From IMG/VR virus record IMGVR_UViG_3300021959_006017, positions 172,752 to 236,751 of that record: a stretch of 64,000 nt of DNA; one strand, written 5' to 3'. A program made the translations under genes and the position numbers. Below the pieces are notes generated by a model that ran no database searches, was not told the DNA's origin, and worked only from the letters and a program-made list of their open reading frames with translations. This DNA comes from a virus. Below, one piece after another: positions 40,210 to 56,437 of this stretch. The number at the start of each line of letters is the position of its first letter. The first letter of the stretch is position 1.

Positions 40210-40629
40210 ATGAAAGTAGGTTTTACCTGTTCAACATTTGATTTATTGCATGCAGGGCACGTACAAATGTTACGTGAAGCAAAAGAGCAGTGTGAATATT
40301 TGATCTGCGGACTACAAGTAGACCCTAGTCAAGATAGAGCAGAAAAAAACGCTCCTATACAAACTATTGTTGAACGTTATACACAACTAAAAGCAGTAGG
40401 TTATGTAGACGAGATAGTTCCATATGGTACAGAACAGGATCTAGAAGATATTTTAACAATGTATCATATTGATGTTAGAATACTGGGAGAGGAGTATAGA
40501 GATAAAGACTTCACAGGCAAAGATATTTGCCGTAGACGTGATATTGATCTATACTTCAATAAACGAGACCATCGCTTTAGCTCAAGTGGGTTGAGGAAGC
40601 GTGTAGCAGAAAGACAAAATAGTGCTTAA
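40210..40629 (+). CDS. Cytidylyltransferase-like protein (TagD/glycerol-3-phosphate type)
   Basis: A 139-residue nucleotidyltransferase with VGFTCSTFDLLHAGHVQML carrying the HxGH motif, RYTQLKAVGYVDEIVPYG as the R-Y-x-x-L block, and FSSSGLRKRV as the ISSTxLR-type C-terminal motif. This is the complete small CTP-transferase fold found in TagD, TarD and RfaE C-termini. It may make CDP-glycerol or an ADP/CDP-sugar. It heads an operon with several tiny genes and sugar-nucleotide enzymes. Confidence 0.83.
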   Translation: MKVGFTCSTFDLLHAGHVQMLREAKEQCEYLICGLQVDPSQDRAEKNAPIQTIVERYTQLKAVGYVDEIVPYGTEQDLEDILTMYHIDVRILGEEYRDKDFTGKDICRRRDIDLYFNKRDHRFSSSGLRKRVAERQNSA

Positions 40630-41065: not shown

Positions 41066-41229
41066 TGTGGGCATTATTTGTTATTAGCACAGTTGTTGGA
41101 TTAGAAGAACCTAAAGTAACACGCTATGCAGAGTTTGACACTAAGCATGAGTGTTATGTCGAATGGTATAACCTAACCGAAAAGTTTACGCAAAATGAAA
41201 TTGCGTATTGCAAGGAATCAAATGGATAA
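41065..41229 (+). CDS. Small putatively exported protein, 54 residues
   Basis: ATG 41065 overlaps the upstream TAA; AAGGAGAATC upstream is a ribosome-binding site. The 54-residue product starts MWALFVISTVVG, a short hydrophobic start, then a mixed domain with cysteines at HECYVEW and AYCKESNG. It resembles small phage proteins of unknown function. An in-frame codon further upstream at 41038 is inside the preceding gene. Confidence 0.6.
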   Translation: MWALFVISTVVGLEEPKVTRYAEFDTKHECYVEWYNLTEKFTQNEIAYCKESNG

Positions 41230-41929
41230 CTTTATATTTGATGTAGACGGCACACTAACGCCAAGTAGACAAGAAATAGTTCCTCAGTTTAGAGAGTACT
41301 TTAAACACTTTTGTGACGAACATGCTGTATATCTTGTAACTGGTAGCGACTACGCAAAAACTCTTGAGCAGTTAGGTCCCGAAATATGCAACAAAGTAAA
41401 GCGCATCTATAACTGTTCAGGCAATGATGTTTGGGAAAAAGGTGTAAATGTTCGCACAAATGAATGGACACTGCCAGAAGATGCACACGAATGGTTAAGT
41501 GAACAACTAACTGCAAGTGCATTTCCGTTGCGTACTGGGTTACACTTTGAACATAGGCCCGGATTAGTAAACTTTAGTATAGTAGGACGTAACGCTACAC
41601 TAGGCGAACGTAAGCTATATGTTGAATGGGATACAGAGCATAACGAACGAGAAGTTATTTCACATAACTTTAATAAACTATTTAAAGAACTAGAAGCAAG
41701 GCCTGGTGGCGAAACAGGAATAGATATTGCACCCGAAGGTGCAAATAAAAGTCAAATAATCAATGACTTTACAAAATATGAATGGATAAACTTTTTTGGT
41801 GATAGAATGGATCCAGCTGGAAACGACTATCCTTTAGGAAGTATTATCAAATACGGCATGGCCTATCATGTGAAAGATTGGATGGATACCTGGGAGAGAC
41901 TACGTGCATATACTGATTACGGGAAATAA
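41222..41929 (+). CDS. Phosphomannomutase-like HAD protein (eukaryotic PMM type)
   Basis: A 235-residue protein starting at ATG 41222. FDVDGTLTPSRQ gives HAD motif I (D7, D9), YLVTGSDYAKTLEQLG the motif II threonine/serine, GLVNFSIVGRNA the substrate-binding region equivalent to LNVSPIGR, and INFFGDRMDPAGNDYPLG motif IV. This is the alpha-PMM (PF03332-type) signature rather than bacterial ManB. It would convert mannose-6-P to mannose-1-P or a related sugar phosphate. It overlaps the downstream epimerase by 26 bases. Confidence 0.82.
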   Translation: MDNFIFDVDGTLTPSRQEIVPQFREYFKHFCDEHAVYLVTGSDYAKTLEQLGPEICNKVKRIYNCSGNDVWEKGVNVRTNEWTLPEDAHEWLSEQLTASAFPLRTGLHFEHRPGLVNFSIVGRNATLGERKLYVEWDTEHNEREVISHNFNKLFKELEARPGGETGIDIAPEGANKSQIINDFTKYEWINFFGDRMDPAGNDYPLGSIIKYGMAYHVKDWMDTWERLRAYTDYGK

Positions 41930-42668
41930 AGGCTTCGTAGGAAGTGCTTTATACGATAGATTGAGTTTACGTAACGATGTACAAGCGGTACACGGTATAG
42001 ACTTAAAAGACGGACAAGATTTACTTACATTTGATCGATGGCGTGAAGTAGATCTTGTTATTCATCTTGCAGGTAAAAGCGGTGTACGTGAAAGCCTAAG
42101 TGATCCTAGTTCTTATTGGTTTAATAATGTAGAAGCAAGTCGTAAACTATTTGAACGTTATGCAGATACACGCATACTATATGCGAGTAGTTCGAGCGCA
42201 TACGAACCCGATCTAAATCCTTATGCGGCTAGTAAGTTTTGTTTGGAAGAACTTGCAGAACGTTATCCAAATACACTGGGTATGCGTTTCCATACAGTGT
42301 ATTCAGAAAAATGTCCCAGAGAAAATATGTTCTTTAACAAACTATTAAATGGTAAACTAGAATATGTAACTAGGCACTATAGAGATTTTATACATCTAAA
42401 CGACATACTAGATGCAATAGAAATACTAATCAACGCTACACATGTCAAGGGTGTAGTTGATATCGGAACAGGCAATCCTGTAAAGATCCAAGACTTGGCG
42501 CCGGACTTACCTGTCCGTCTAAATACCCCAGGAGAGAGAAGTTGGACTTGTGCTAACATAGAAAAAATGAAAGCACTAGGCTTTAAACCTAAATACTCAG
42601 TAGAAAACTTCTTGACAAACAAAGGCAAAGATAATATAATAAACTTATTCAATGGAGAAACAGTATGA
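41904..42668 (+). CDS. NAD-dependent sugar epimerase/dehydratase (SDR)
   Basis: A 254-residue extended SDR starting at GTG 41904 within the end of the PMM gene. ILITGNKGFVGSAL is the GxxGxxG NAD site, VIHLAGKSGVRES the second SDR signature, and NPYAASKFCLEEL the YxxxK catalytic pair. ASSSSAYEP contains the catalytic serine. The C-terminus is shorter than in GalE. It probably makes a GDP- or UDP-linked sugar together with the PMM-like protein. The promoter of the clamp gene is embedded in its 3' end. Confidence 0.83.
   Translation: MHILITGNKGFVGSALYDRLSLRNDVQAVHGIDLKDGQDLLTFDRWREVDLVIHLAGKSGVRESLSDPSSYWFNNVEASRKLFERYADTRILYASSSSAYEPDLNPYAASKFCLEELAERYPNTLGMRFHTVYSEKCPRENMFFNKLLNGKLEYVTRHYRDFIHLNDILDAIEILINATHVKGVVDIGTGNPVKIQDLAPDLPVRLNTPGERSWTCANIEKMKALGFKPKYSVENFLTNKGKDNIINLFNGETV
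42612..42640 (+). promoter_or_regulatory. Sigma70-type promoter of sliding clamp
   Basis: TTGACA (42612-42617), exactly 17 bases, TATAAT (42635-42640), lying inside the last codons of the epimerase gene and 25 bases before the clamp ATG. Confidence 0.85.
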
Positions 42669-43405
42669 AAGATATCTTACAAGACGTAGTTGCTCACACA
42701 CACGCACTTGGCTTCCTTAGCTTAGTAAAAGTAAGCAACGACGAAGGCACACAGATTGATGCTATGGCAGAAGATCGTTCAGTTATTTTGAGCGCAACTG
42801 CACATGCACCTGTTGCTGAGTTTAAAGGCACATTTGGTATGCCTAACTTAGACAAGTTAGCGTTACACTTAAAGAATCCGGAGTATCAAAAAGATGCAAA
42901 GATTAATGTAGTTGAAGCAGAGCGTAATGGCGAAACTGTTCCAACACACATTCACTTTGAAAATGATGCTGGTGATTTCCAAAACGACTATCGTTTTATG
43001 AACAAAGCGATTATCGAAGAAAAACTTAAAACAGTTAAGTTTAAAGGTGCAGCATGGAATGTAAAACTGCAACCTAGCATTGGTGCTATTGGACGTTTGA
43101 AGTTGCAAGCGGCAGCACATTCAGAAGAGCCTACATTTAATGTTACTACTGCTGAAACTGGCGGTGTTAACGATCTAGTGTTTAGCTTTGGTGATGCAAG
43201 CACACACGCAGGTAAGTTTGTATTTGAAACAAATGTAGAAGGTACACTTACACATACTTGGAGTTGGCCGGTAGCGCAAGTTCAAGCAATTCTTAACTTG
43301 GACGGTGATGTTACAATGAGTATTTCAGATCAAGGTGCTATGCAGATCACTGTTGATTCAGGACTAGTAAAGTACGACTACATTCTACCAGCACAGAGCA
43401 AGTAA
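42665..43405 (+). CDS. 45: Sliding clamp (gp45-like)
   Basis: A 246-residue protein with the two-domain beta-rich pattern of T4/cyanophage clamps. IDAMAEDRSVILSATA and FKGTFGMPNLDKLALHLK match the first domain, and GDVTMSISDQGAMQITVDSG near the end corresponds to the second. There are no catalytic motifs, as expected. It tethers the polymerase to DNA and in T4 also activates late promoters. It has its own strong promoter and is directly followed by DpdA with a one-base overlap. Confidence 0.85.
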   Translation: MKDILQDVVAHTHALGFLSLVKVSNDEGTQIDAMAEDRSVILSATAHAPVAEFKGTFGMPNLDKLALHLKNPEYQKDAKINVVEAERNGETVPTHIHFENDAGDFQNDYRFMNKAIIEEKLKTVKFKGAAWNVKLQPSIGAIGRLKLQAAAHSEEPTFNVTTAETGGVNDLVFSFGDASTHAGKFVFETNVEGTLTHTWSWPVAQVQAILNLDGDVTMSISDQGAMQITVDSGLVKYDYILPAQSK

Positions 43406-44955
43406 TGAACAGAGATTTAACTGCAACACAAAATGACTATGCTGTTTTTCTTCCAGCGTTAAGTGGCTTCTATGCCACTTACGTTGGTAAACAGCGTCAT
43501 GATGAATACGTAGACAAAAATCGTATTCCAAGCAACTTTGCTAATGGTGTTGAGAGTTTAAACTATCTTAATGCACAAGAAGGTGCATTTACTTACAAAT
43601 GGACTCTATACTCTGCAGGACACGCTGACTTAGACACAACTAAGTTTGTTCCAAAAGAAGATATGGTGCGTAACAGAGATAGAGAGAACACTTGGCTACT
43701 AGGCGACTCAGGCGGCTTCCAGATTGGTAAAGGCGTTTGGGAAGGTGATTGGAAGGATCTTAACTGTCCAAAAGCACAAAAGAAACGTGATGGTGTGTTA
43801 CGTTGGATGGATGCTTATATGGACTATGGTATGATCCTTGATATTCCAGCATGGGTTGCACGTAGCCCAGAAGGCGCAAAAGCAACAGGCATTTCAACAT
43901 ACCAAGAAGCAGTAGAAGCAACACGTATTAACAATGAATACTTTATGAAACATCGTACTGGTGCTTGTAAGTTCTTAAACGTACTACAAGGCGAAAACCA
44001 TGTGGAAGCAGATGACTGGTACGAGCAGATGAAAGACTTTTGTGATCCAGTTAAGTATCCCGATAATCATTTTAATGGCTGGTCAATGGGTGGACAAAAC
44101 ATGTGTGACCTAGAGCTTGCACTAAGACGTATTGTAACACTACACTACGACGGCTTGCTACAAAAAGGTGTACACGATGTAATGCACTTCTTGGGTACTT
44201 CAAAACTCGAATGGGCATTGTTGTTAACAGACATTCAACGAGCAGTAAGGAAGTATTATAATGAAAACTTCACTATCACTTTTGACTGTGCTAGTCCTTT
44301 CCTTGCAACCGCAAACGGACAGGTATACATACAGAATGAAACTACGGACAGGTCGAAATGGACATATCGAATGGTGCCGTCAGTTGACGATAAAAAATAT
44401 GCTACAGACACCCGTCTGTTTAGAGATGCTACTGTATCAGATGGGGTATTTAAAAACTTTGAAGACAGTCCCATCACTGCCGAACTCAAAGTATCAGACG
44501 TTTGTACATATGCTCCCGGAGATCTAAATAAAATAGGTAAAGAAGGAAAAACATCATGGGATAGTTTTTCATATGCGATCCAAATGGGTCATAACGTGTG
44601 GAGTCACATTAATGCAGTTCAAGAAGCGAACAGACAATACGACAATGGAGTTATTCCGAAAATGCTTGTACAAGAGCGATTTGACAGGGTTCTATTTAGA
44701 GATGTTGTGGAAGAAATATTCTCAAAGACTACGCTAGAAGATTCACTTGCAGTTATTAAAGAACACGAAAAGTTCTTTATGAGTATCAGAGGCACACGCG
44801 GTTATACTGGCAAAAAGATTGTTAGTGCTAGACCTAAGTTTGCTGAACTATTTGATGTAGAAGAAGTAGAAGTAGATTCGGAAGAGTTTACTGAAGCACA
44901 AATACAAAAACTTGAGGAACTAGAAGATGAGCAACTTCACGGAGAAACACAATAA
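43405..44955 (+). CDS. dpdA: DpdA-like DNA 7-deazaguanine transglycosylase (TGT superfamily)
   Basis: A 516-residue TGT-fold enzyme. LLGDSGGFQIGKGVW contains the TGT signature DSGGFQ with D101 as the expected proton acceptor, and ITFDCASPF contains D294 as the candidate nucleophile. SMGGQNMCDL and MHFLGTSKLEWALL fit substrate and glycine-rich regions. The length and lack of the tRNA TGT zinc site suit phage DpdA, which swaps guanine in DNA for a 7-deazaguanine. FolE, QueD-like and QueE genes in the same region support this over tRNA modification. Confidence 0.87.
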   Translation: MNRDLTATQNDYAVFLPALSGFYATYVGKQRHDEYVDKNRIPSNFANGVESLNYLNAQEGAFTYKWTLYSAGHADLDTTKFVPKEDMVRNRDRENTWLLGDSGGFQIGKGVWEGDWKDLNCPKAQKKRDGVLRWMDAYMDYGMILDIPAWVARSPEGAKATGISTYQEAVEATRINNEYFMKHRTGACKFLNVLQGENHVEADDWYEQMKDFCDPVKYPDNHFNGWSMGGQNMCDLELALRRIVTLHYDGLLQKGVHDVMHFLGTSKLEWALLLTDIQRAVRKYYNENFTITFDCASPFLATANGQVYIQNETTDRSKWTYRMVPSVDDKKYATDTRLFRDATVSDGVFKNFEDSPITAELKVSDVCTYAPGDLNKIGKEGKTSWDSFSYAIQMGHNVWSHINAVQEANRQYDNGVIPKMLVQERFDRVLFRDVVEEIFSKTTLEDSLAVIKEHEKFFMSIRGTRGYTGKKIVSARPKFAELFDVEEVEVDSEEFTEAQIQKLEELEDEQLHGETQ

Positions 44956-45130
44956 ACTTGCTACACACCTGCAAGAACTTTATCGCAAGCACAGAGCACT
45001 TGACGAAGAAGTAAAAGACATGTATACTAAGTTTGCAGATGACGGTGCTATTAACCGTAAGAAAACTCAAAAGCTATGGCTCAAAGATGAAATACACAGA
45101 TTAGAAACAGAACTAAAGGCACTAGGATGA
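44927..45130 (+). CDS. DUF465/YdcH-like small coiled-coil protein
   Basis: A 67-residue helical hairpin protein (HNKLATHLQELYRKHRALDEE ending LKDEIHRLETEL) matching the YdcH/DUF465 pattern of H..L...Y..H..LD and LKDEI. It overlaps DpdA by 29 bases and the nuclease-like gene by four. YdcH function is unknown in bacteria too. Position suggests it is co-made with DpdA. Confidence 0.7.
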   Translation: MSNFTEKHNKLATHLQELYRKHRALDEEVKDMYTKFADDGAINRKKTQKLWLKDEIHRLETELKALG

Positions 45131-45729
45131 CATTAAATGTAGTTAAACTAAACAAAGCAATCGAAGTCGGAACTGTGATTCCTCTAAAAGAATGCGGTGG
45201 TAATATCGGCCGATGGGTTGAAGATCAGCTTGAAGATAACGGATACTCTGTTAACAGAGGCAAAGGTATTGATTTGCAAAAGTTAGGTATTGAAGTCAAA
45301 ACTCGTAAAGTTGATAGCGGAAGCGGACATACAGTAGGTGCAATGTTACCACAAGACATTGTTCAAGAAGATTGGCAAGCTGGTAATAATATGTTTGACA
45401 AAGTACAACGTCAGTACAGAGTTAAACATAAAGTAAACGAACTTACAGGCGATAACATTGTTGTAAGTGCGAAAGTACATGACTTTACTGACGATACAAT
45501 CCAAACGAAACTTAAAGAAGCATGGAGCCATTGTCGAAATGTTCTTGTGCAGAACTCCGGACATGACTTTTCTTATATTAGAGGAGAAGGTATGTGGGCT
45601 TATTTAGAACTACAAGAAAATGGTTCCTATCAGTTCCGTATTACTGACAAGTATATGAATGAAATGGAAAACATTGCAAACCTTAATCGAACAAAAATGT
45701 TTTTTGTAGAGGCACAGTATGAAGCGTGA
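45127..45729 (+). CDS. MutH-like PD-(D/E)XK nuclease candidate
   Basis: A 200-residue protein with a MutH/Sau3AI-like start: GGNIGRWVEDQLEDNGYSV (E32), then GIDLQKLGIEVKTRK giving D49-x6-E56-V-K58, a PD-(D/E)XK active site. KTRKVDSGSGHTVG follows as in MutH-type enzymes. The C-terminal half is unassigned. Being adjacent to DpdA, it could be a nuclease that attacks host DNA lacking the phage base modification. Nuclease fold is a sequence inference. Confidence 0.65.
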   Translation: MTLNVVKLNKAIEVGTVIPLKECGGNIGRWVEDQLEDNGYSVNRGKGIDLQKLGIEVKTRKVDSGSGHTVGAMLPQDIVQEDWQAGNNMFDKVQRQYRVKHKVNELTGDNIVVSAKVHDFTDDTIQTKLKEAWSHCRNVLVQNSGHDFSYIRGEGMWAYLELQENGSYQFRITDKYMNEMENIANLNRTKMFFVEAQYEA

Positions 45730-46252
45730 TTATGAAACTGGTGTAGCAGATGATGCAGTTTTCTTCATAGGCGTAGAAGTAGAAAAGACTCCTGCATTTG
45801 GATTAAAAACATTATTTGTTACAGGTGTACAACCTTGTGATGTTATTCAAAAACATTACGATGAAGAACAATGCGAACATATCTTCTTTGGTGCTAATCA
45901 TAGTTTTAATCCAGGTGTAAACTTTCCAGAAGATAATGATCAATGGGATCCTTGGGACAATATGATCAAAGCATTTTTAACAGCAGGCAAACTGTGTAGT
46001 TTAGATATTCCCATTTCACTTGCAGAAGCATTTTTAGAATCACCATTGATCGAATACGACAACTTTATCCCACAACTACGCATTCCATTGCCTTATGCAA
46101 AACTGTGGAACTACAACACAATGTTGAAGATTGATGATAAAGACTTTAAGGCAACTAATCCTGGTGTTTGGTGTCATAGTTTACACGATCTAATGGACAG
46201 AGAAAAGTTTACAGATTGGGGCAAATATGGGCTTGACAAAGTTATTGAATGA
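45719..46252 (+). CDS. Conserved-type protein of the modification region, unknown function
   Basis: A 177-residue soluble, aromatic-rich protein (AVFFIGVEVEKTPAFGLKTL, FFGANHSFNPGVNFPEDNDQ). It overlaps the nuclease-like gene by 11 bases and is followed by a promoter and the QueD-like gene. No motif is recognised. Its placement suggests a role linked to deazaguanine synthesis or use. Confidence 0.6.
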   Translation: MKRDYETGVADDAVFFIGVEVEKTPAFGLKTLFVTGVQPCDVIQKHYDEEQCEHIFFGANHSFNPGVNFPEDNDQWDPWDNMIKAFLTAGKLCSLDIPISLAEAFLESPLIEYDNFIPQLRIPLPYAKLWNYNTMLKIDDKDFKATNPGVWCHSLHDLMDREKFTDWGKYGLDKVIE

Positions 46253-46261
46253 AAGTATACT
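46233..46261 (+). promoter_or_regulatory. Sigma70-type promoter of queD-like gene
   Basis: TTGACA (46233-46238), 17-base spacer, TATACT (46256-46261). The predicted transcript start is within about three bases of ATG 46271, and no ribosome-binding site precedes that ATG. Confidence 0.75.
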
Positions 46262-46270
46262 ATAAAAACA

Positions 46271-46741
46271 ATGGAACAAGAACGTTACGAAACTTATATG
46301 AAACGTAGAATGAAAGAAGAAGATTTTAAAATGGCTCAAGACAATGTAATGAGTAAAGCAGATCGTAGTATTTGGGTAACCTTCCGCAAAGAAGGTGTGC
46401 ATATGTATCCAGGTGCTGACAAAGATCCTAAACTAGCAACAGGCGATTGGGATGATGTATCATTCCTTGGCATTCCACATCGTCATATCTTTCACTTCAA
46501 AGTACGTATTCAGGTATTTCATAATGATCGTGACATTGAGTTTATTCAGTTTAAACGTTGGATGGAGCGTCTTTATGATGTAGAAGGTGTACTAGAACTT
46601 AATCATAAATCATGTGAGATGATCGCAGATGATCTCTATGAAGCTATTTCTGCAAAGTATCCCGGCCGCTTTGTTGAAATTGATGTAGCCGAAGATGGCG
46701 AAAATGGCTGTTCAATCTTTTATCCTAAACCGCAACTTTAA
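46271..46741 (+). CDS. queD: QueD/6-pyruvoyl-tetrahydropterin synthase-like protein
   Basis: A 156-residue protein resembling cyanophage PTPS-like proteins. PHRHIFHFKVRIQVFHNDRD supplies an H-x-H zinc pair (H70, H72), with H44 as a possible third ligand, and LNHKSCEMIADDLYEAI matches the P-(T/S)-x-E helix with its conserved glutamate. The usual catalytic cysteine after the first histidine is not evident, so activity is uncertain. QueD turns dihydroneopterin triphosphate from FolE into carboxytetrahydropterin, the QueE substrate. Confidence 0.65.
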   Translation: MEQERYETYMKRRMKEEDFKMAQDNVMSKADRSIWVTFRKEGVHMYPGADKDPKLATGDWDDVSFLGIPHRHIFHFKVRIQVFHNDRDIEFIQFKRWMERLYDVEGVLELNHKSCEMIADDLYEAISAKYPGRFVEIDVAEDGENGCSIFYPKPQL

Positions 46742-46757
46742 TGCAGAGGAACCTAAA

Positions 46758-46970
46758 ATGGCAATCGAGTTTAATCGAGAAGCATATAATAAAGTCTTTA
46801 ACGACTTGGATAAGTACCGCGACTACTGTCGCTTTGAAGGTAAGGTCTTTGATGAAGCAGACCTTTTTAAAAAGGATTCGCCAAGATGGCAAGCCTATCA
46901 AAAGTACCAAGGTTGGCTACGAGCAAAAGCTCGAACTGCCGGAAGGAAATTTAACAATCGGAGAAACTAA
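46758..46970 (+). CDS. Small conserved-type protein, unknown function
   Basis: A 70-residue protein starting at ATG 46758 with AGAGGA upstream; in-frame extension to 46695 lies in the previous gene. It is helical and charged (KVFNDLDKYRDYCRFEGKVF, WLRAKARTAGRKFNNRRN) with a basic end, perhaps nucleic-acid binding. It sits between the QueD-like and glycosyltransferase genes with a one-base gap to the latter. Confidence 0.62.
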   Translation: MAIEFNREAYNKVFNDLDKYRDYCRFEGKVFDEADLFKKDSPRWQAYQKYQGWLRAKARTAGRKFNNRRN

Positions 46971-48029
46971 ATGACTATCTATATCGTAGACATCGAAGCA
47001 GTTGATACACGTTACACTAAACAATGGAAGGACTATCTTCCAAAGCAACTGCAACGGGCTACGAATAAAGAAGTTGTAGTTATTAGTGGAGGAGAAACGC
47101 CTCAGGCTACTACGCCTGGGGCTTTTCTTAACTTCGGTGGTACAAATGTTTATAAGTCAAAACAACTAGAACAGATTGGAGAAATGTTCTGCAATGGTGA
47201 AGTTAAGAACGGCGATTATTTTTTGTATACCGATGCCTGGAATCCTACAGTTATACAACTACGCTACATGGCAGAGTTACTTGGTGTTAATGTTAGCATT
47301 GGTGGCCTCTGGCATGCTGGTAGTTATGACCCACAAGATTTCTTGGGCAGACTAATAGGTAGCAAACCTTGGGTCAGACATGCTGAGATGTCAATGTTTG
47401 AATGTTACGATGACAACTTCTTTGCAAGTGATTTCCATATTGATATGTTTACAGATGTATTTGACGAAGATTATGCAGTTGACTGGAATAGAATACATCG
47501 TGTAGGTTGGCCCATGGAGTATCTAAAGAACAGTTTAGATAGCTATAAAGGTATGGAAAAACGAGATCTTATTCTCTTTCCGCATCGTGTTGCTCCTGAA
47601 AAACAAGTTGATATTTTCCGTGATCTAGCAGAGCAACTTCCTGAGTACGAGTTTGTTATCTGTCAAGAACGTGAACTTACTAAAAATGAATACCATAACT
47701 TGTTAGGTGAAGCAAAACTTGTGTTTAGTGCTAACCTACAAGAGACACTGGGCATTAGTTGGTATGAAGGTGCTCTTGTAAATGCTATTCCTATGGTTCC
47801 TGATAGATTAAGTTATTCAGAGATGGCACTACCCGAGTTTAAGTATCCAAGTGTGTGGACTGAAGACTTTACAAGTTACAGACAGCATAGAAATAAAGTA
47901 GTTGCACAAATACGTGAGTACATGGAAAACTATGACGATTTCTTAGTAAGCCTTGAGAAGCAACGTACTAAACTAAACAAAGAATTTTTTTCAGGAGCAG
48001 CATTGTATGACGCAATCAAAGAAAGATGA
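46971..48029 (+). CDS. GT-B fold glycosyltransferase-like protein
   Basis: A 352-residue protein with a GT-B layout: an N-terminal domain (MTIYIVDIEAVDTRYTKQW) and a C-terminal nucleotide-sugar domain with ILFPHRVAPEKQVDIFRDLA and the GT4-type signature ETLGISWYEGALVNAIPMVP, where E-x7-E residues normally hold the sugar-nucleotide donor. It could add sugar to modified DNA bases, to the virion or to host surface. An intrinsic-terminator-like hairpin lies within codons 43-53. Confidence 0.75.
   Translation: MTIYIVDIEAVDTRYTKQWKDYLPKQLQRATNKEVVVISGGETPQATTPGAFLNFGGTNVYKSKQLEQIGEMFCNGEVKNGDYFLYTDAWNPTVIQLRYMAELLGVNVSIGGLWHAGSYDPQDFLGRLIGSKPWVRHAEMSMFECYDDNFFASDFHIDMFTDVFDEDYAVDWNRIHRVGWPMEYLKNSLDSYKGMEKRDLILFPHRVAPEKQVDIFRDLAEQLPEYEFVICQERELTKNEYHNLLGEAKLVFSANLQETLGISWYEGALVNAIPMVPDRLSYSEMALPEFKYPSVWTEDFTSYRQHRNKVVAQIREYMENYDDFLVSLEKQRTKLNKEFFSGAALYDAIKER
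47099..47129 (+). terminator. Terminator-like hairpin inside the glycosyltransferase gene
   Basis: GCCTCAGGC (47099-47107) pairs with GCCTGGGGC (47114-47122), eight canonical pairs plus one wobble pair with a six-base loop, followed by TTTTCTT. It lies in the first sixth of the coding region. It may attenuate transcription or be a chance effect of coding sequence. Confidence 0.45.
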
Positions 48030-48387
48030 TACCTTTACTATTAGTGTTGGTGATACTATTTGGCATTCTAATGAATCCCCTAATATTACATTCGACACTA
48101 TGATAACAACAGCAGATACATTTACTATCAGTGATCCTGCAGATACAGTTACTATTGACATAAACGATTATGTAAGTGATGATACTTTTGATATCAGTAA
48201 CATTACATTTGGTAGTGTTCCATTTGTAGATACTATGCCTAGTTTAGATCGTGTTAATAATATGTGCGAAGAATATCCTGCACTTGCAAAGGCATACGAA
48301 AACTTCAAAACAATATACAAAATGACTGAACAAGACTACAAAGGCAAACTAAAAGAAAGAGGCTTAGACGATGACATTCCGTTCTAA
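48007..48387 (+). CDS. Acidic T/D-rich protein, unknown function
   Basis: A 126-residue protein with a repetitive beta-rich first 85 residues (DTFTISVGDTIWHSN, ADTFTISDPADTVTI, DDTFDISNITFGS: repeated D-T-F-(T/D)-I-S units) and a helical end. The repeats look like a small beta-solenoid or structural protein. It overlaps the glycosyltransferase by 23 bases and the cupin by 17. No family recognised. Confidence 0.62.
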   Translation: MTQSKKDDTFTISVGDTIWHSNESPNITFDTMITTADTFTISDPADTVTIDINDYVSDDTFDISNITFGSVPFVDTMPSLDRVNNMCEEYPALAKAYENFKTIYKMTEQDYKGKLKERGLDDDIPF

Positions 48388-48808
48388 ATTTTTATCCTGG
48401 TTAGACAAGCTAGGACGCAAGCGAGTAATTATGGACCGTTATGAAAACGAGCCGTACTTAACTCGCTATTATCTTTTCTTAAAAAACCGTAAATGGTTTC
48501 CGTTTAACGTGTTTCTACACAATTTTCACAAAGGAGATTTAGATGATTTACACGATCACCCTTGGCCTTATCTTACTATCATTTTGCGTGGCGGGTATTG
48601 GGAGCATACTCCCCGAGGACGCTTTTGGAGAGCACCGGGACACATCAGAATTAGTACTCCAAGTAGTTTGCATCGGATTGAGCTTGAGCCTGGTGTTGAT
48701 GCTTGGACACTCTTTATACCAGGTCCTAAAATAAGAGAATGGGGATTCATTCGCAAAGGCGAGTGGGTTCAAAATGAACAATATCTAAAAGAGAAATATG
48801 AACAATGA
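48371..48808 (+). CDS. Cupin-domain protein
   Basis: A 145-residue protein with a double-stranded beta-helix pattern: LHDHPWPYLTIILRGGYWEH (metal-binding H-x-H and the G.Y.E strand) and HIRISTPSSLHRIELEPGVD with a distal histidine, then WTLFIPG. Such single-cupin proteins are often sugar-nucleotide epimerases/isomerases or dioxygenases. It sits among sugar and nucleotide genes; the substrate is unknown. Confidence 0.7.
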   Translation: MTFRSKFLSWLDKLGRKRVIMDRYENEPYLTRYYLFLKNRKWFPFNVFLHNFHKGDLDDLHDHPWPYLTIILRGGYWEHTPRGRFWRAPGHIRISTPSSLHRIELEPGVDAWTLFIPGPKIREWGFIRKGEWVQNEQYLKEKYEQ

Positions 48809-49365
48809 TTAAGAAACATTATTATTCGTGGCAAGACATTGAACGTGCTTGCCTAAACATTGCATTGCAAATGTATAAAGATAACTGGCGTCCTGACTAC
48901 ATTGTAGGTATTACACGTGGCGGCAATGTACCAGCTACTATCCTTAGCAATATGTTAGGTGTACGTGGCGATGCCCTTAAAGTAAGTTTAAGGGACAATC
49001 AAGGCGGTGAAAGTGAATCTAACTGTTGGATGAGCGAAGATGCATTTGGTTATGTTGACGAAGAACAACGAGACTTGTTTAAAACTCGTTGGGATATTAG
49101 TAAACGTAAAAACATTCTCGTTGTAGATGACATTAACGACACTGGTGCTACATTTAACTGGATCAAAGAAGATTGGCGCAGTACATGCTTGCCAAATGAA
49201 GATAAGGCTTGGGAAAGTGTTTGGCATCGTAACGTTCGGTTTGCTACTATTACAGATAACTTGTCAAGCGAGTTTAACGGTAAAGTAGACTACACTACAC
49301 ACGAAGTAAACAAAGCAGAAGAAGATGTATGGTTAGTTTACCCATGGGAGAATGTAGGACAATGA
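48805..49365 (+). CDS. Phosphoribosyltransferase-family protein
   Basis: A 186-residue type I PRTase. YIVGITRGGNVPATILSNML corresponds to the pyrophosphate loop region and KNILVVDDINDTGATFNWI is the PRPP-binding motif (V-V-D-D-I-x-D-T-G-A-T). These enzymes link PRPP to a base such as guanine or xanthine. In this setting it could salvage or prepare purine-like bases, but the substrate cannot be read. It overlaps the next start (ATGA). Confidence 0.85.
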   Translation: MIKKHYYSWQDIERACLNIALQMYKDNWRPDYIVGITRGGNVPATILSNMLGVRGDALKVSLRDNQGGESESNCWMSEDAFGYVDEEQRDLFKTRWDISKRKNILVVDDINDTGATFNWIKEDWRSTCLPNEDKAWESVWHRNVRFATITDNLSSEFNGKVDYTTHEVNKAEEDVWLVYPWENVGQ

Positions 49366-49541
49366 ACAAAGAATATATTGAAGCTTTAGAAAAAACTATA
49401 GCTCGTAAAAAAGCTGAACTTGAGCAAATGTATAAAGACGGAGTAAAGATGCAAGCATGTATTAACTTTCGAGAAGAAATCACAAGAAAGCAAAAAACAC
49501 TTGCAAGAGCTAAAAAAGAAATGCAAGGCAAAAGAAAATGA
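49362..49541 (+). CDS. Small coiled-coil protein
   Basis: A 59-residue helical, K/E-rich protein from ATG 49362 (YIEALEKTIARKKAELEQMY, then CINFREEITRKQKTLARAKK). Likely a coiled-coil; function unknown. It overlaps both neighbours by four bases. Confidence 0.6.
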   Translation: MNKEYIEALEKTIARKKAELEQMYKDGVKMQACINFREEITRKQKTLARAKKEMQGKRK

Positions 49542-49924
49542 CATTTAATGAAATACCTTGGAAGGACGTTTTAGTTGATACAAGAGAATATACAGTTTTT
49601 AAAGATGGTTTTCCAGTTACCGAAGGCCATGTTCTTTTTGTGCCTAAGGTGGAAGATTGGGATCACTTGGCTAAATGCTATAAAGCAGCTTATGCTTGGG
49701 GCTATGACTGGGTTCAAAAGGGTTATTGTGATAGTTACAACATCGGACAAAATGTAGGCGAAGAAGCAGGACAAACTGTTATGTGGCCTCATGTACATTT
49801 GATTCCACGCCGTAAAGGTGATATGGATGATCCTCGTGGCGGGGTGCGTCACGTTATACCAGAGAAAGGAAACTATAGACTATGGCATGTGGATGCGGAA
49901 GATCGCCAACCGGAAAATGCATAG
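49538..49924 (+). CDS. HIT-family (histidine triad) protein
   Basis: A 128-residue protein with HIT-like features: EGHVLFVPKVEDWDHLAKCY as the first part and GQTVMWPHVHLIPRRKGD as the triad region, where H-V-H is kept and the first histidine position is tryptophan-proline-H. HIT proteins hydrolyse or transfer nucleotides, for example Ap4A or AMP-lysine. The triad appears slightly degenerate. Its 3' end overlaps the next small gene by 43 bases. Confidence 0.75.
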   Translation: MTFNEIPWKDVLVDTREYTVFKDGFPVTEGHVLFVPKVEDWDHLAKCYKAAYAWGYDWVQKGYCDSYNIGQNVGEEAGQTVMWPHVHLIPRRKGDMDDPRGGVRHVIPEKGNYRLWHVDAEDRQPENA

Positions 49925-50019
49925 GTTGGCATAAACTAAGTGAAGACGAGTATCGTCAAAAACTTGCAGAATACGAAGAAAAACAACTACAAAAAAGATT
50001 AAAGGAGTCAAAAGAATGA
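49882..50019 (+). CDS. CDGSH-like mini iron-sulfur or zinc protein, 45 residues
   Basis: ATG 49882 opens a 45-codon frame overlapping the HIT gene by 43 bases. The product starts MACGCGRSPTGKCIGWHKL, a C-x-C-x7-C-x-G-x-H arrangement close to the CDGSH cluster motif (C-x-C-x2-S-x3-P-x-C-D-G-S-H). The rest is a charged helix (EYRQKLAEYEEKQLQKRLKE). Three cysteines and one histidine could hold a [2Fe-2S] cluster or zinc. It overlaps the next ATG by four bases. Confidence 0.68.
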   Translation: MACGCGRSPTGKCIGWHKLSEDEYRQKLAEYEEKQLQKRLKESKE

Positions 50020-50219
50020 AAGAACAACTAGTCAAAGCAGCACGTATGCACGCCGAAGGTGAACTAGAACGTGCAAAAACAAACATCCTAGTTTATATGA
50101 ATCAAAGTGTAGGTATTGGTGAACACAGCGATATTGTTGAAGCTATTCAAGAAGAACTTGATAAAATGGCTTCTGCAACAGATCGTATTGAGATGCTAGA
50201 TAAGTATTTCTCAGCATAA
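50016..50219 (+). CDS. Small helical protein, unknown function
   Basis: A 67-residue helical protein with AAAGGAG upstream (VKAARMHAEGELERAKTNIL, then IVEAIQEELDKMASATDRIE). It is similar in size and style to conserved small proteins of marine T4-like phages. The stop overlaps the next ATG by one base. Function unknown. Confidence 0.6.
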   Translation: MKEQLVKAARMHAEGELERAKTNILVYMNQSVGIGEHSDIVEAIQEELDKMASATDRIEMLDKYFSA

Positions 50220-51034
50220 TGTCTATTACACTTTTTTTAGGCGACAGTCACAGTGCAGGGTATACCATTAACAAAGAAGGTATACCTCTATACTGGACTG
50301 AAAATAACTATGCAGAAATATACGCTGAAAAAAATAGTACACCAAGTGTTATTTACGCACAAGCGGGAGGCTGTAATAGAAAGTTTCCTATATGGCTAAG
50401 TTGTATGCTAGATAGGTATGATATTTCAAAAATATTTATACAAAGCACACACTGGAATAGATATCTTGTTGCGAATGATCCTAGTTTAGACTTAGGCGAA
50501 AGTTACAAAAACGATACTTTTTTAGAAAGAAGTGAAGATAGTAAAAACGGTTTAGTCCATAGATATACTGATAAAAAATATGCAGGTAATAGATTTGAAA
50601 ATCTAATGGGACAGTATGAAGAATACTGGGACAAGTTTAAAGGTTTTAAAGGAAGTTTAGACAATCCAAAAGGAGAGTTTGAAATATTAGAAAACCAATA
50701 CCGCTATACAAAACTTTGGCACGAAGCACTAACGTATCTACAACTACGTGAATACCTTATGGATTTTACTGTAATAGATCATATGGTAAGAAAAACAAAT
50801 ATTCCTGTTTATGTTTGGACTATTAATAATAGAATACATTTGCCTAAGAATACAAACTTATACAAAGATTTTGACAATGTTAGGTTTGTATATACTTCTG
50901 CCGAAGATTTCTTGTTTGAAAGACATCGAATGAAGATATCTAAAATGGTCGTAGTAGACAAAGAACATTATACATATGATGTACATAGTGCAATAGCAGA
51001 ACACTACTTGCCGTATATTGAAAAAAACTATTGA
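50219..51034 (+). CDS. SGNH/GDSL-like protein, second copy
   Basis: A 271-residue protein starting MSITLFLGDSHSAGYTINKE, with the block I G-D-S motif. QAGGCNRKFPIWLSCML gives an N/G-containing block II/III-like stretch and VDKEHYTYDVHSAIAEHYLP ends with D-x-x-H as in SGNH block V. It is more complete than the 36436 protein and shares only the general layout. Likely an esterase or deacetylase of unknown target. Confidence 0.65.
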   Translation: MSITLFLGDSHSAGYTINKEGIPLYWTENNYAEIYAEKNSTPSVIYAQAGGCNRKFPIWLSCMLDRYDISKIFIQSTHWNRYLVANDPSLDLGESYKNDTFLERSEDSKNGLVHRYTDKKYAGNRFENLMGQYEEYWDKFKGFKGSLDNPKGEFEILENQYRYTKLWHEALTYLQLREYLMDFTVIDHMVRKTNIPVYVWTINNRIHLPKNTNLYKDFDNVRFVYTSAEDFLFERHRMKISKMVVVDKEHYTYDVHSAIAEHYLPYIEKNY

Positions 51035-51059
51035 CAAAAACCTAAATATATCATATAAT
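51031..51059 (+). promoter_or_regulatory. Sigma70-type promoter of folE-queE
   Basis: TTGACA (51031-51036), 17-base spacer, TATAAT (51054-51059). It differs from the promoter at 35635 at only two of 29 positions, including the ACCTAAATATATCATATA core (51040-51057). Confidence 0.85.
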
Positions 51060-51104
51060 AAAACAATAAGACATCCTCGTCTTTAACTCGGAGTATAAAA
51101 ATTG

Positions 51105-51791
51105 ATGAGCAAAGCAGAACAAATAAAAGCAAAACTAGAAGATGCTGGCATCCGCTATTGGGCAGGTGACAACATCTCAGAAGTCCTACAAGCAGGTGAC
51201 AAAGAAGCACTTATTGAAGATGCCACACTAGCATTTAATCAAGTACTAGATGCACTAGTTATTGATCGCTATAACGATCCTAACTCGCAAGGTACAGCAA
51301 GACGTCTTGCAAAAATGTACTTTAATGAGATTATGGCAGGACGCTATGATCCTAAACCCGACGCAACAGCATTTCCAAATGATAGCGATGACCGTTATGA
51401 AGGTATGCTAGTTGTACGTTCAGAACTAAAAAGTATATGTTCACATCATCACCAGCCAGTTACTGGTGTAGCGTACATTGGTATTATTGCCGCAGACAAA
51501 CTTATCGGACTTAGCAAGTACACACGTATTGCACAATGGTGTGCTAGACGTGGTACACTGCAAGAAGAACTTGCAAACGATATTGCACGTGAGATTAAGG
51601 CTGCAACTGGTGCTCAAAACTTAGGTGTATACATTCAAGCAACACACGGTTGCTGTGAAAATCGTGGCATTATGGCACATAGTTCACTTACACAGACAAC
51701 TGTACTTGAAGGTAGTTTTAAACACGATCCAGGTGCAAAGAAAGAGTTCTTTGACAACATTAAACTACAACAGGAGTTTGCACCACGATGA
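51105..51791 (+). CDS. folE: GTP cyclohydrolase I
   Basis: A 228-residue FolE starting at ATG 51105 (the adjacent TTG at 51102 is less likely). ELKSICSHHHQPVTGVAYIG carries the zinc/active-site C112 and histidines 114-116, GLSKYTRIAQWCARRGTLQE matches the GLSK..R.v......R.Q.QE block, and ATHGCCENRGI contains the second zinc cysteine (C183). It makes dihydroneopterin triphosphate from GTP, the first step to 7-deazaguanines and folate. It overlaps queE by four bases under its own promoter. Confidence 0.93.
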   Translation: MSKAEQIKAKLEDAGIRYWAGDNISEVLQAGDKEALIEDATLAFNQVLDALVIDRYNDPNSQGTARRLAKMYFNEIMAGRYDPKPDATAFPNDSDDRYEGMLVVRSELKSICSHHHQPVTGVAYIGIIAADKLIGLSKYTRIAQWCARRGTLQEELANDIAREIKAATGAQNLGVYIQATHGCCENRGIMAHSSLTQTTVLEGSFKHDPGAKKEFFDNIKLQQEFAPR

Positions 51792-52681
51792 AGTTAAGAT
51801 ATTCAGAAGCATTTTATAGTGTACAGGGCGAAGGCAAGTTTGTTGGAGTCCCTAGTGTGTTCTTAAGAACATTTGGTTGTAACTTTCGTTGCATGAACTT
51901 TGGCACAGGCGAAACAAAAGATCGATGGACACTGCACAAAGAAGGTAAGAAGTATAACGATGAAGTTAAAGCTCTTATCGATGCTGGTGTTCATAAGACT
52001 ACAAAAGAGTTTAATGACTTGCCTATCATTCACACAGGCTGTGACACATATGCAAGTATCTATCCAGAGTTTAAAGACTTCAACAAACTAGCAGAAGTTG
52101 ATGAAGTAGTTGAACATTTGCTGTCACTTACTCCAGAAGGTAAGTGGACACAGGACAATGGTCAAGACATTCATTTGATTATGACCGGTGGAGAGCCTTT
52201 GTTAGCGTGGCAAAAGCTCTACATTGATTTGTTCGAACATCCACGTATGCAGGATTTAAAAAATGTCACATTTGAAACAAACACTACACAACATTTACAC
52301 GACGATTTCTTCAACTATCTCACAGACCAAGACAGATTTGCGGTCACGTGGTCTTGTTCCCCAAAACTTAGTGTTAGCGGAGAACCTTGGGATACTGCTA
52401 TACTGCCTGCTGTCGCTCGCGAGTATAGCCTTGTTGACGGCAGTGACATGTATCTCAAGTTTGTTGTCGCTACTGCTGACGATTTCGAAGAAGTTACAAG
52501 AGCTGTCGAAGAGTATCGTAGCGCCGGGGTCGAGTGTCCGGTATATCTTATGCCGCTTGGAGGACGTAGCGAAGAATACAACCTCAATGTTAAAGAAGTC
52601 GCCGAAGCATGTATGGAGCGAGGTTGGAGGTTCAGCCCCCGACTACACATCAGCCTATTCGGAAATGCATGGGGGACCTAA
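51788..52681 (+). CDS. queE: 7-carboxy-7-deazaguanine synthase, radical SAM
   Basis: A 297-residue QueE. RYSEAFYSVQGEGKFVGVPS is the QueE-specific start (E..F.SIQGEG...G.P..F.R). The cluster motif is unusual: C31-x3-C35 is followed by F38 where the third cysteine of C-x3-C-x2-C normally lies, while C85 (in HTGCDTYAS) after an insertion may be the third ligand. LIMTGGEPLL is the SAM-binding GGEP. It forms 7-carboxy-7-deazaguanine from carboxytetrahydropterin. Coupled to folE. Confidence 0.87.
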   Translation: MKLRYSEAFYSVQGEGKFVGVPSVFLRTFGCNFRCMNFGTGETKDRWTLHKEGKKYNDEVKALIDAGVHKTTKEFNDLPIIHTGCDTYASIYPEFKDFNKLAEVDEVVEHLLSLTPEGKWTQDNGQDIHLIMTGGEPLLAWQKLYIDLFEHPRMQDLKNVTFETNTTQHLHDDFFNYLTDQDRFAVTWSCSPKLSVSGEPWDTAILPAVAREYSLVDGSDMYLKFVVATADDFEEVTRAVEEYRSAGVECPVYLMPLGGRSEEYNLNVKEVAEACMERGWRFSPRLHISLFGNAWGT

Positions 52682-55763: not shown

Positions 55764-56057
55764 ATGAGTAGACCAAAGCCCAATGTACTTTTAGAGTATG
55801 TAGATAATAAAACCTATCGGTCTGAACAAGTTCTTGAAGCAGATGCCATATGGGCAGTGTTTCATCAGAACAAGCCGTTTAACTTAAAAAGCTCAAACGC
55901 ACTTACAAACTACCCCGGACCTAAATATAAAAAGACTTCCTTTTCCAATCCAGGTCATGCTTTTAATCTTGCAGAAAAACTAAACAAGATGTTTAACTCA
56001 CAGGATTTTACTGTGGTAAAACTAACTGAGGGCGAGTTAGTTGTTGAAGAAGAATGA
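55764..56057 (+). CDS. Conserved-type small phage protein, unknown function
   Basis: A 97-residue basic protein (KPNVLLEYVDNKTYRSEQVL, TNYPGPKYKKTSFSNPGHAF, LAEKLNKMF). It resembles a frequently seen marine T4-like small protein, but I can give no role. The late box and four-base overlap with the next gene suggest a late two-gene unit. Confidence 0.6.
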   Translation: MSRPKPNVLLEYVDNKTYRSEQVLEADAIWAVFHQNKPFNLKSSNALTNYPGPKYKKTSFSNPGHAFNLAEKLNKMFNSQDFTVVKLTEGELVVEEE

Positions 56058-56437
56058 ACTGGAAAGAAACATATACTAAGGTATTTTTAAAAGAACTTGG
56101 CAAAAGTACAACAGATGCCAATGTAAAAGAGTATATGCCATTATGGTGGCAAAACACTAGAAACAAAGAAACAGGCGGTCTTCGACTTACAGATCGGGGA
56201 TACGAAGTGCTACAGCAAATAGAACTTGCTACATATGATATCCCTTACCCAAAGGATATGCCACTTACAACACAAGTTATAATATTTTTAGATCAGTTTA
56301 TTGATTGTCCATACTATCTTACAAACAGAAGTATTACAGTAACTAATGAAAGGAAAGCAGTTGAGCTTACTCTTTTTAGCGGTGATTTACGTAAATATGG
56401 GCTAACAAAAGCAATGAGCAGATCTAAAAAAGGTTGA
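56054..56437 (+). CDS. Conserved-type small phage protein, unknown function
   Basis: A 127-residue mixed alpha-beta protein (KELGKSTTDANVKEYMPLWW, GGLRLTDRGYEVLQQIELAT, IIFLDQFIDCPYYLTNRSIT). GLRLTDRGYEVL looks like a winged-helix type segment, which could indicate a DNA-binding fold, but the match is weak. A sigma70-type promoter lies at its 3' end. Confidence 0.58.
   Translation: MNWKETYTKVFLKELGKSTTDANVKEYMPLWWQNTRNKETGGLRLTDRGYEVLQQIELATYDIPYPKDMPLTTQVIIFLDQFIDCPYYLTNRSITVTNERKAVELTLFSGDLRKYGLTKAMSRSKKG

Follow-up and report, generated by a model that had tools for sequence, protein, structure and literature searches.

The locus studied here raises the question of how a 7-deazaguanine base could be made and installed in phage DNA when the cassette that would do so shows no QueC. 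The cassette lies at 42.6-52.7 kb of a 64,000-nucleotide window (positions 172752-236751) of the 236,751-base contig IMGVR_UViG_3300021959_006017, which comes from a large bacterial or archaeal virus. Every cassette gene is on the plus strand, and together they encode a DpdA-like protein, a QueD-fold protein, FolE and QueE, plus a sliding clamp, a glycosyltransferase and a phosphoribosyltransferase. Phage 7-deazaguanine modification and the DpdA and DpdA2 enzymes have already been published (PMC6884629). The cassette probably swaps guanine in the phage DNA for a modified form, and we give about an even chance to the more specific reading that it makes and installs a 7-deazaguanine base by a route that bypasses QueC. 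The first-pass annotation of this stretch had proposed a 7-deazaguanine DNA-modification pathway without QueC but with a DpdA-like enzyme of the tRNA-guanine transglycosylase (TGT) family, and this is supported as an interpretation.

A search with PF06508 gave no match to QueC at E≤1e-3 in the window, in agreement with the first-pass annotation, or anywhere else in the 236,751-base contig, which may be incomplete. The preQ0 pathway encoded on the contig is thus not complete at this threshold, and the earlier suggestion that QueC is carried elsewhere in the genome finds no candidate there. QueF is likewise absent from the contig, and no canonical QueC was found within 80 environmental loci. Two relatives, G004 and G007, encode a QueC-like PP-loop protein that adjoins radical SAM-like open reading frames (ORFs) outside the cassette. 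A QueC hidden as such a divergent PP-loop protein was considered and rejected, as this protein used as a query found nothing in the contig at E≤1. Weak QueC matches in relative G012 and in phage X1 were also set aside, since by sequence these proteins resemble TilS and NAD synthetase.

The gene at 46271..46741, which we propose as a stand-in for QueC, encodes a member of phrog_17812 (E=8e-33), a family labelled "unknown function", and the protein has no match in Pfam. Its AlphaFold2 model (predicted local distance difference test, pLDDT, 84) has E. coli QueD as its best PDB match (template modelling score to the target ~0.70, probability 1.00), and on this basis it is predicted to adopt the PTPS/QueD-type T-fold. 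Across a diverse set of 20 members, the residues that never vary include H44, H70, H72, H84, R87, E90, S114, C115, E116 and E141. Motif and secondary structure place H44, H70 and H72 in a putative zinc site, and E116 and E141 appear to be the counterparts of the two Glu residues of QueD. When the protein was compared with E. coli QueD, the position of the catalytic Cys was found to be Leu66 and the Asp-His loop was absent. Features gained relative to QueD are a His/Arg pair, which is invariant, and a Ser-Cys. Since the catalytic Cys and the Asp-His are missing, the protein has the fold of QueD without its defining feature and is not QueD. The first-pass annotation had described a QueD-like gene with its own promoter; the promoter-like site is present (46233..46261, 11/12 positions, spacer 17), but the identity as the QueD of the pathway falls with the lost catalytic residues, both of which are kept by another gene on the contig.

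That gene, at contig positions 158839-159219, lies 13.5 kb upstream of the window and is the only PTPS/QueD-family gene on the contig above the PF01242 cut-off. In an alignment with other phage members C30, D73, H74, E108 and E139 are invariant, and the protein thus combines the family profile with the catalytic Cys, the Asp-His and the Glu residues. It scores below the TIGR03367 cut-off, and its third zinc His is a Tyr (HGY instead of HGH). By these sequence features it, and not the in-window protein, is the best QueD candidate. The HGY-for-HGH change recurs in phage QueD-family proteins (stretch L120:6777-7226), and Pseudomonas phage Paride carries both an HGY-type protein and a canonical QueD. 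A UV-damage endonuclease-like ORF, read by eye, is located near the out-of-window QueD gene (stretch L120:8114-9241). A separate PTPS/QueD-family gene accompanies the QueD-fold gene both here and in 10/11 named phages that have the QueD-fold gene.

We compared the occurrence of QueC, scored as PF06508 above cut-off, in 11 phages with phrog_17812 (phiST, Paride, Phosso, RHph_I1_18, ACP17, X1, Bakedbeans, Ahp1, BUCT-ZZ01, D479 and MA9V-3) and 10 phages without it (9g, Vibrio 2.275.O, Moby, GR11A, PhiXhv-12, CP220, nt-1, HVTV-1, phiSM and QD01). QueC was found in only one of the former, D479, and in all 10 of the latter (Fisher p=3.4e-5, or 3.5e-4 when Bipper, which has neither gene, is included), a p-value that serves as a guide only, since the 21 phages were hand-picked for comparison and are related to varying degrees. 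The QueC-like protein of D479 is a divergent paralogue in which the SGG of the QueC motif SGGxDS (PMC13329287) has become SGI; it is 41% identical to the second QueC-like protein of QD01, which adjoins a true QueC. As the in-cassette QueC-like protein of Moby is distantly similar to that of D479, we nevertheless counted D479 as an exception. Reading the sequences of small proteins encoded next to QueC or FolE in three of these phages (Moby, GR11A and PhiXhv-12) showed no QueD-fold motif. The anticorrelation with QueC suggests that the QueD-fold protein takes 7-carboxy-7-deazaguanine (CDG) onward.

Both other enzymes of CDG formation in the cassette are readily recognised. FolE, a GTP cyclohydrolase I (51102..51791, ATG at 51105), matches PF01227 at E=2e-37 (128.9 bits versus a cut-off of 27). 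The QueE-like radical SAM enzyme (51788..52681; phrog_2076, E=2e-50) has the three invariant Cys residues of the radical SAM cluster, C31, C35 and C85, with the spacing C-x3-C-x49-C. This spacing is due to an insert of ~48 residues that separates the third cluster Cys from the second; the QueE proteins of several large phages (Moby, X1, GR11A and Paride) have it too, and those of phiST, ACP17 and 9g do not.

The candidate for base exchange is a 516-aa DpdA-like protein of the TGT superfamily (43405..44955), which carries DSGGFQ and FDxxSPF motifs and has relatives in at least 599 matching stretches. Neither Pfam nor PHROG assigns it a family, its family profile found nothing among PDB sequences, and a BLAST search with it does not reach the DpdA of 9g or nt-1. 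Compared with the 9g DpdA by itself, it showed no meaningful similarity, and no relatives of the 2.275.O DpdA turned up in a scan for them. The protein does align with the nt-1/ACP17 (DpdA2) type, weakly by profile (E=0.04) and with matching motifs, at the TGT active-site positions D101, D146, Q195 and D294; D101, D146 and D294 are invariant, and Q195 nearly so, when the window group and the DpdA2-type group are taken together. The C-x-C-x2-C...H zinc motif of tRNA TGTs is missing, as only scattered single Cys residues were read in the region after D294, and PF01702 (tRNA TGT) gave no match. The six best PDB matches of its AlphaFold2 model, which has a mean pLDDT of 50, are all TGTs, none at E≤1e-3. 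The gene directly follows the sliding clamp gene (42665..43405; the Phosso homologue is annotated as sliding clamp), as the first-pass annotation had noted. By analogy with DpdA relatives (PMC6884629), and from this position behind the clamp as in 9g, DNA is the probable target.

The cassette is strongly conserved. In 30 environmental loci with enough flanking sequence, the clamp, DpdA-like, QueD-fold, glycosyltransferase, phosphoribosyltransferase and QueE genes were present in every case, as was the gene at 45719..46252, which encodes a conserved cassette protein without an assigned function; FolE was present in 29/30. The order clamp, DpdA, QueD-fold, GT4-type glycosyltransferase, FolE, QueE was the same in 29 of these 30 long loci, and the grouping is therefore not due to chance. 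All genes that the first-pass annotation had placed in this one region were found, including the adjacent FolE and QueE genes, which overlap by 4 bases behind a putative promoter that the annotation had called strong. This site (51031..51059) and the one ahead of the clamp and DpdA genes (42612..42640) are 12/12 matches to a sigma-70-type promoter (TTGACA-17-TATAAT, spacer 17). Promoter-like matches are not in excess overall (28 versus 30 by chance), but chance is unlikely to have placed two 12/12 sites at the starts of genes.

The GT4-type glycosyltransferase (46971..48029), some members of which match Pfam glycosyltransferase families, was found in 19 phage records (the PA5oct group, Phosso, ACP17, X1, PhiXhv-12/15/16 and Ep032), and the QueE or QueC genes of all 19 mark them as 7-deazaguanine phages. 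It is also close to the QueD-fold gene in all six loci with this gene in genome bins, four of which have polymerase and clamp genes that suggest phage contigs. In PhiXhv-12 and Ep032 a relative of the glycosyltransferase adjoins a Gat-QueC gene and a PIG-L-type deacetylase gene (PhiXhv-12 stretch L137:2669-5903), a trio that resembles the bacillithiol BshB/BshA pair and, by this analogy, suggests an amino sugar on a 7-deazaguanine base. Just upstream of the cassette are genes for a cytidylyltransferase-like protein (40210..40629; PF01467, E=1.5e-13), possibly supplying nucleoside diphosphate sugar, a HAD-IIB hydrolase that may be a sugar-phosphate enzyme (41195..41929; TIGR01484, 47.8 bits, above cut-off) and a protein of the NAD-dependent nucleotide-sugar epimerase/dehydratase family (41904..42668; PF01370, E=1.9e-20). 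Among 44 relatives with enough upstream sequence these were present in 42, 40 and 35, respectively. The glycosyltransferase may have a role in DNA tailoring. The QueD-fold step does not require it, as some phages that carry the QueD-fold gene, among them phiST, show no homologue.

The first-pass annotation had suggested that a cupin, a phosphoribosyltransferase and a glycosyltransferase could add further steps to the pathway. The last two hold as cassette members, while the cupin-like protein (48371..48808; phrog_4786, E=1e-38), present in 20/30 loci, is more loosely linked; its phage relatives, often annotated as cysteine dioxygenase, come mainly from phages like the mycobacteriophages. The purine-type phosphoribosyltransferase (48805..49365; PF00156, E=5e-13) was found in no more than 8 named phage records, and 6 of these are from phages with the QueD-fold gene. 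Among named phages, the 45719..46252 protein is found in the PA5oct group and ACP17 only, all of which share the QueD-fold gene and the glycosyltransferase. A HIT-domain protein (49538..49924; PF01230, E=2e-10) is loosely linked (25/30 loci), and the hypothetical protein at 50219-51034 is present in few relatives.

In the route that we propose, FolE, the QueD-family enzyme encoded at contig positions 158839-159219 and QueE would produce CDG. The QueD-fold protein would bind CDG and convert it, most likely by decarboxylation to 7-deazaguanine, which is the simplest reaction; a T-fold enzyme with the zinc-site His residues, the Glu of the fold and a new His/Arg pair appears suited to binding CDG. 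The DpdA-like enzyme would exchange guanine in DNA for the converted base, the phosphoribosyltransferase might salvage the guanine released, and the glycosyltransferase, with the nucleotide-sugar-type genes upstream, might add a sugar at a later step. A glycosylated 7-deazaguanine in phage DNA, with the acceptor base made by the QueD-fold protein and inserted by DpdA, and the sugar added by the glycosyltransferase from what the upstream nucleotide-sugar genes supply, is a doubtful but conceivable outcome; to our knowledge, no such hypermodification has been described. Part of the proposed route may already be known: Cui and co-workers, in Nucleic Acids Research in 2023 (51, 9214), reportedly found dDG and dCDG in phages, which would make CDG insertion precedented, and are said to have predicted a CDG decarboxylase, DpdL. 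DpdL, possibly but not necessarily the same family as phrog_17812, would catalyse the step that we assign to the QueD-fold protein.

Several observations weigh against this route. Decarboxylation is deduced from the fold, the kept and lost residues and chemistry only, and the comparison linking phrog_17812 to the lack of QueC used the hand-picked phages described above. The AlphaFold2 model of the DpdA-like protein is poor, and divergent QueC-family proteins are present elsewhere in some relatives. Plain 7-deazaguanine has no obvious attachment point for the linked glycosyltransferase, so either the product of the QueD-fold protein differs or the sugar goes elsewhere; a hydroxymethylcytosine pathway could be another target of this enzyme. 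Lastly, the contig encodes a queuosine-precursor transporter of the YhhQ family (contig 55967-56413; PF02592, E=1.5e-21; TIGR00697, 96 bits, cut-off 51), which would also allow preQ0 to be imported. Cupin-like and KDO-8P-synthase-like ORFs were seen near the transporter, which itself is at 1342-2040 of stretch L139.

Direct insertion of CDG by the DpdA-like enzyme, with the QueD-fold protein having some other role, is in our view unlikely. QueE makes CDG, QueC is absent and the carboxyl group of CDG could be a handle for the glycosyltransferase, yet this leaves no role for a QueD-fold protein that is kept in 30/30 loci and anticorrelates with QueC. For Bipper, a phage without QueC, CDG has been put forward as one possible base (PMC6884629); Bipper is also without the QueD-fold protein, which would fit with this protein adding a step beyond CDG. 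The direct insertion considered by the first-pass annotation is thus weakened by an extra enzyme that probably acts on CDG. It is quite unlikely that the phage lost QueC because preQ0 is supplied by host QueC or imported through the transporter. The host may indeed have QueC and the transporter is above cut-off, yet it was found in only one of the 26 related or comparison records searched (Vibrio phage 2.275.O), whereas relatives generally have the cassette with no QueC close by; import of preQ0 would moreover leave FolE and QueE superfluous.

The residues of the two QueD-type proteins bear on a further explanation, in which the in-window protein functions as a divergent QueD, leaving the PTPS-family gene at contig 158839 with another role. 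E. coli QueD is the best fold match of the in-window protein, HGH is replaced by HGY in the 158839 gene, and a canonical QueD accompanies the HGY-type gene in Paride. We nonetheless regard this as decidedly unlikely, as it is the HGY-type gene that keeps the catalytic Cys and the Asp-His that the in-window protein lacks, and QueC-bearing Moby and PhiXhv-12 carry the HGY type only. That the enzymes act on tRNA, or in folate or pterin metabolism, rather than on DNA seems very improbable. In cells, tRNA is the substrate of TGT-family enzymes, and FolE takes part in making folate as well; however, both profile and zinc motif set the DpdA-like protein well apart from tRNA TGT, and its gene sits behind the clamp as in 9g, the DNA of which is modified (PMC6884629).

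The proposed QueC-free route can also be set against known systems. The preQ0/archaeosine systems of 9g and nt-1 (Hutinet et al. 2019, PMC6884629) likewise comprise FolE, a QueD-family protein, QueE and a DpdA-type enzyme, and in 9g dpdA adjoins the clamp gene, as here. The cassette described here differs from them in having no QueC or Gat-QueC and in its additional QueD-fold protein and linked glycosyltransferase. Another known system is the cluster of Cellulophaga phage phiST (gp36 QueD, gp37 QueE, gp38 FolE, gp39 MazG and gp40), in which gp40 belongs to the same QueD-fold family and stands beside a separate QueD without QueC, as here. phiST differs in gene order and in having no BLAST homologue of the glycosyltransferase or the DpdA-like protein. 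Homologues of the DpdA-like, QueD-fold and glycosyltransferase proteins, together with QueE, are present in the Pseudomonas jumbo phages of the PA5oct/Paride group and in Sinorhizobium phage Phosso, where the cassette homologues are mostly unannotated. Paride and Phosso have no QueC, as here, and Paride additionally has a canonical QueD.

If correct, the proposed route would explain how a 7-deazaguanine base is made without QueC in many environmental phages and would give phrog_17812 a testable role. It would also draw attention to a glycosyltransferase family that, in named phages, is found only with 7-deazaguanine pathways. As 7-deazaguanine bases shield the DNA of phages against restriction enzymes (PMC6884629), a new base would broaden the known means of restriction evasion and could yield new nucleic-acid tools.

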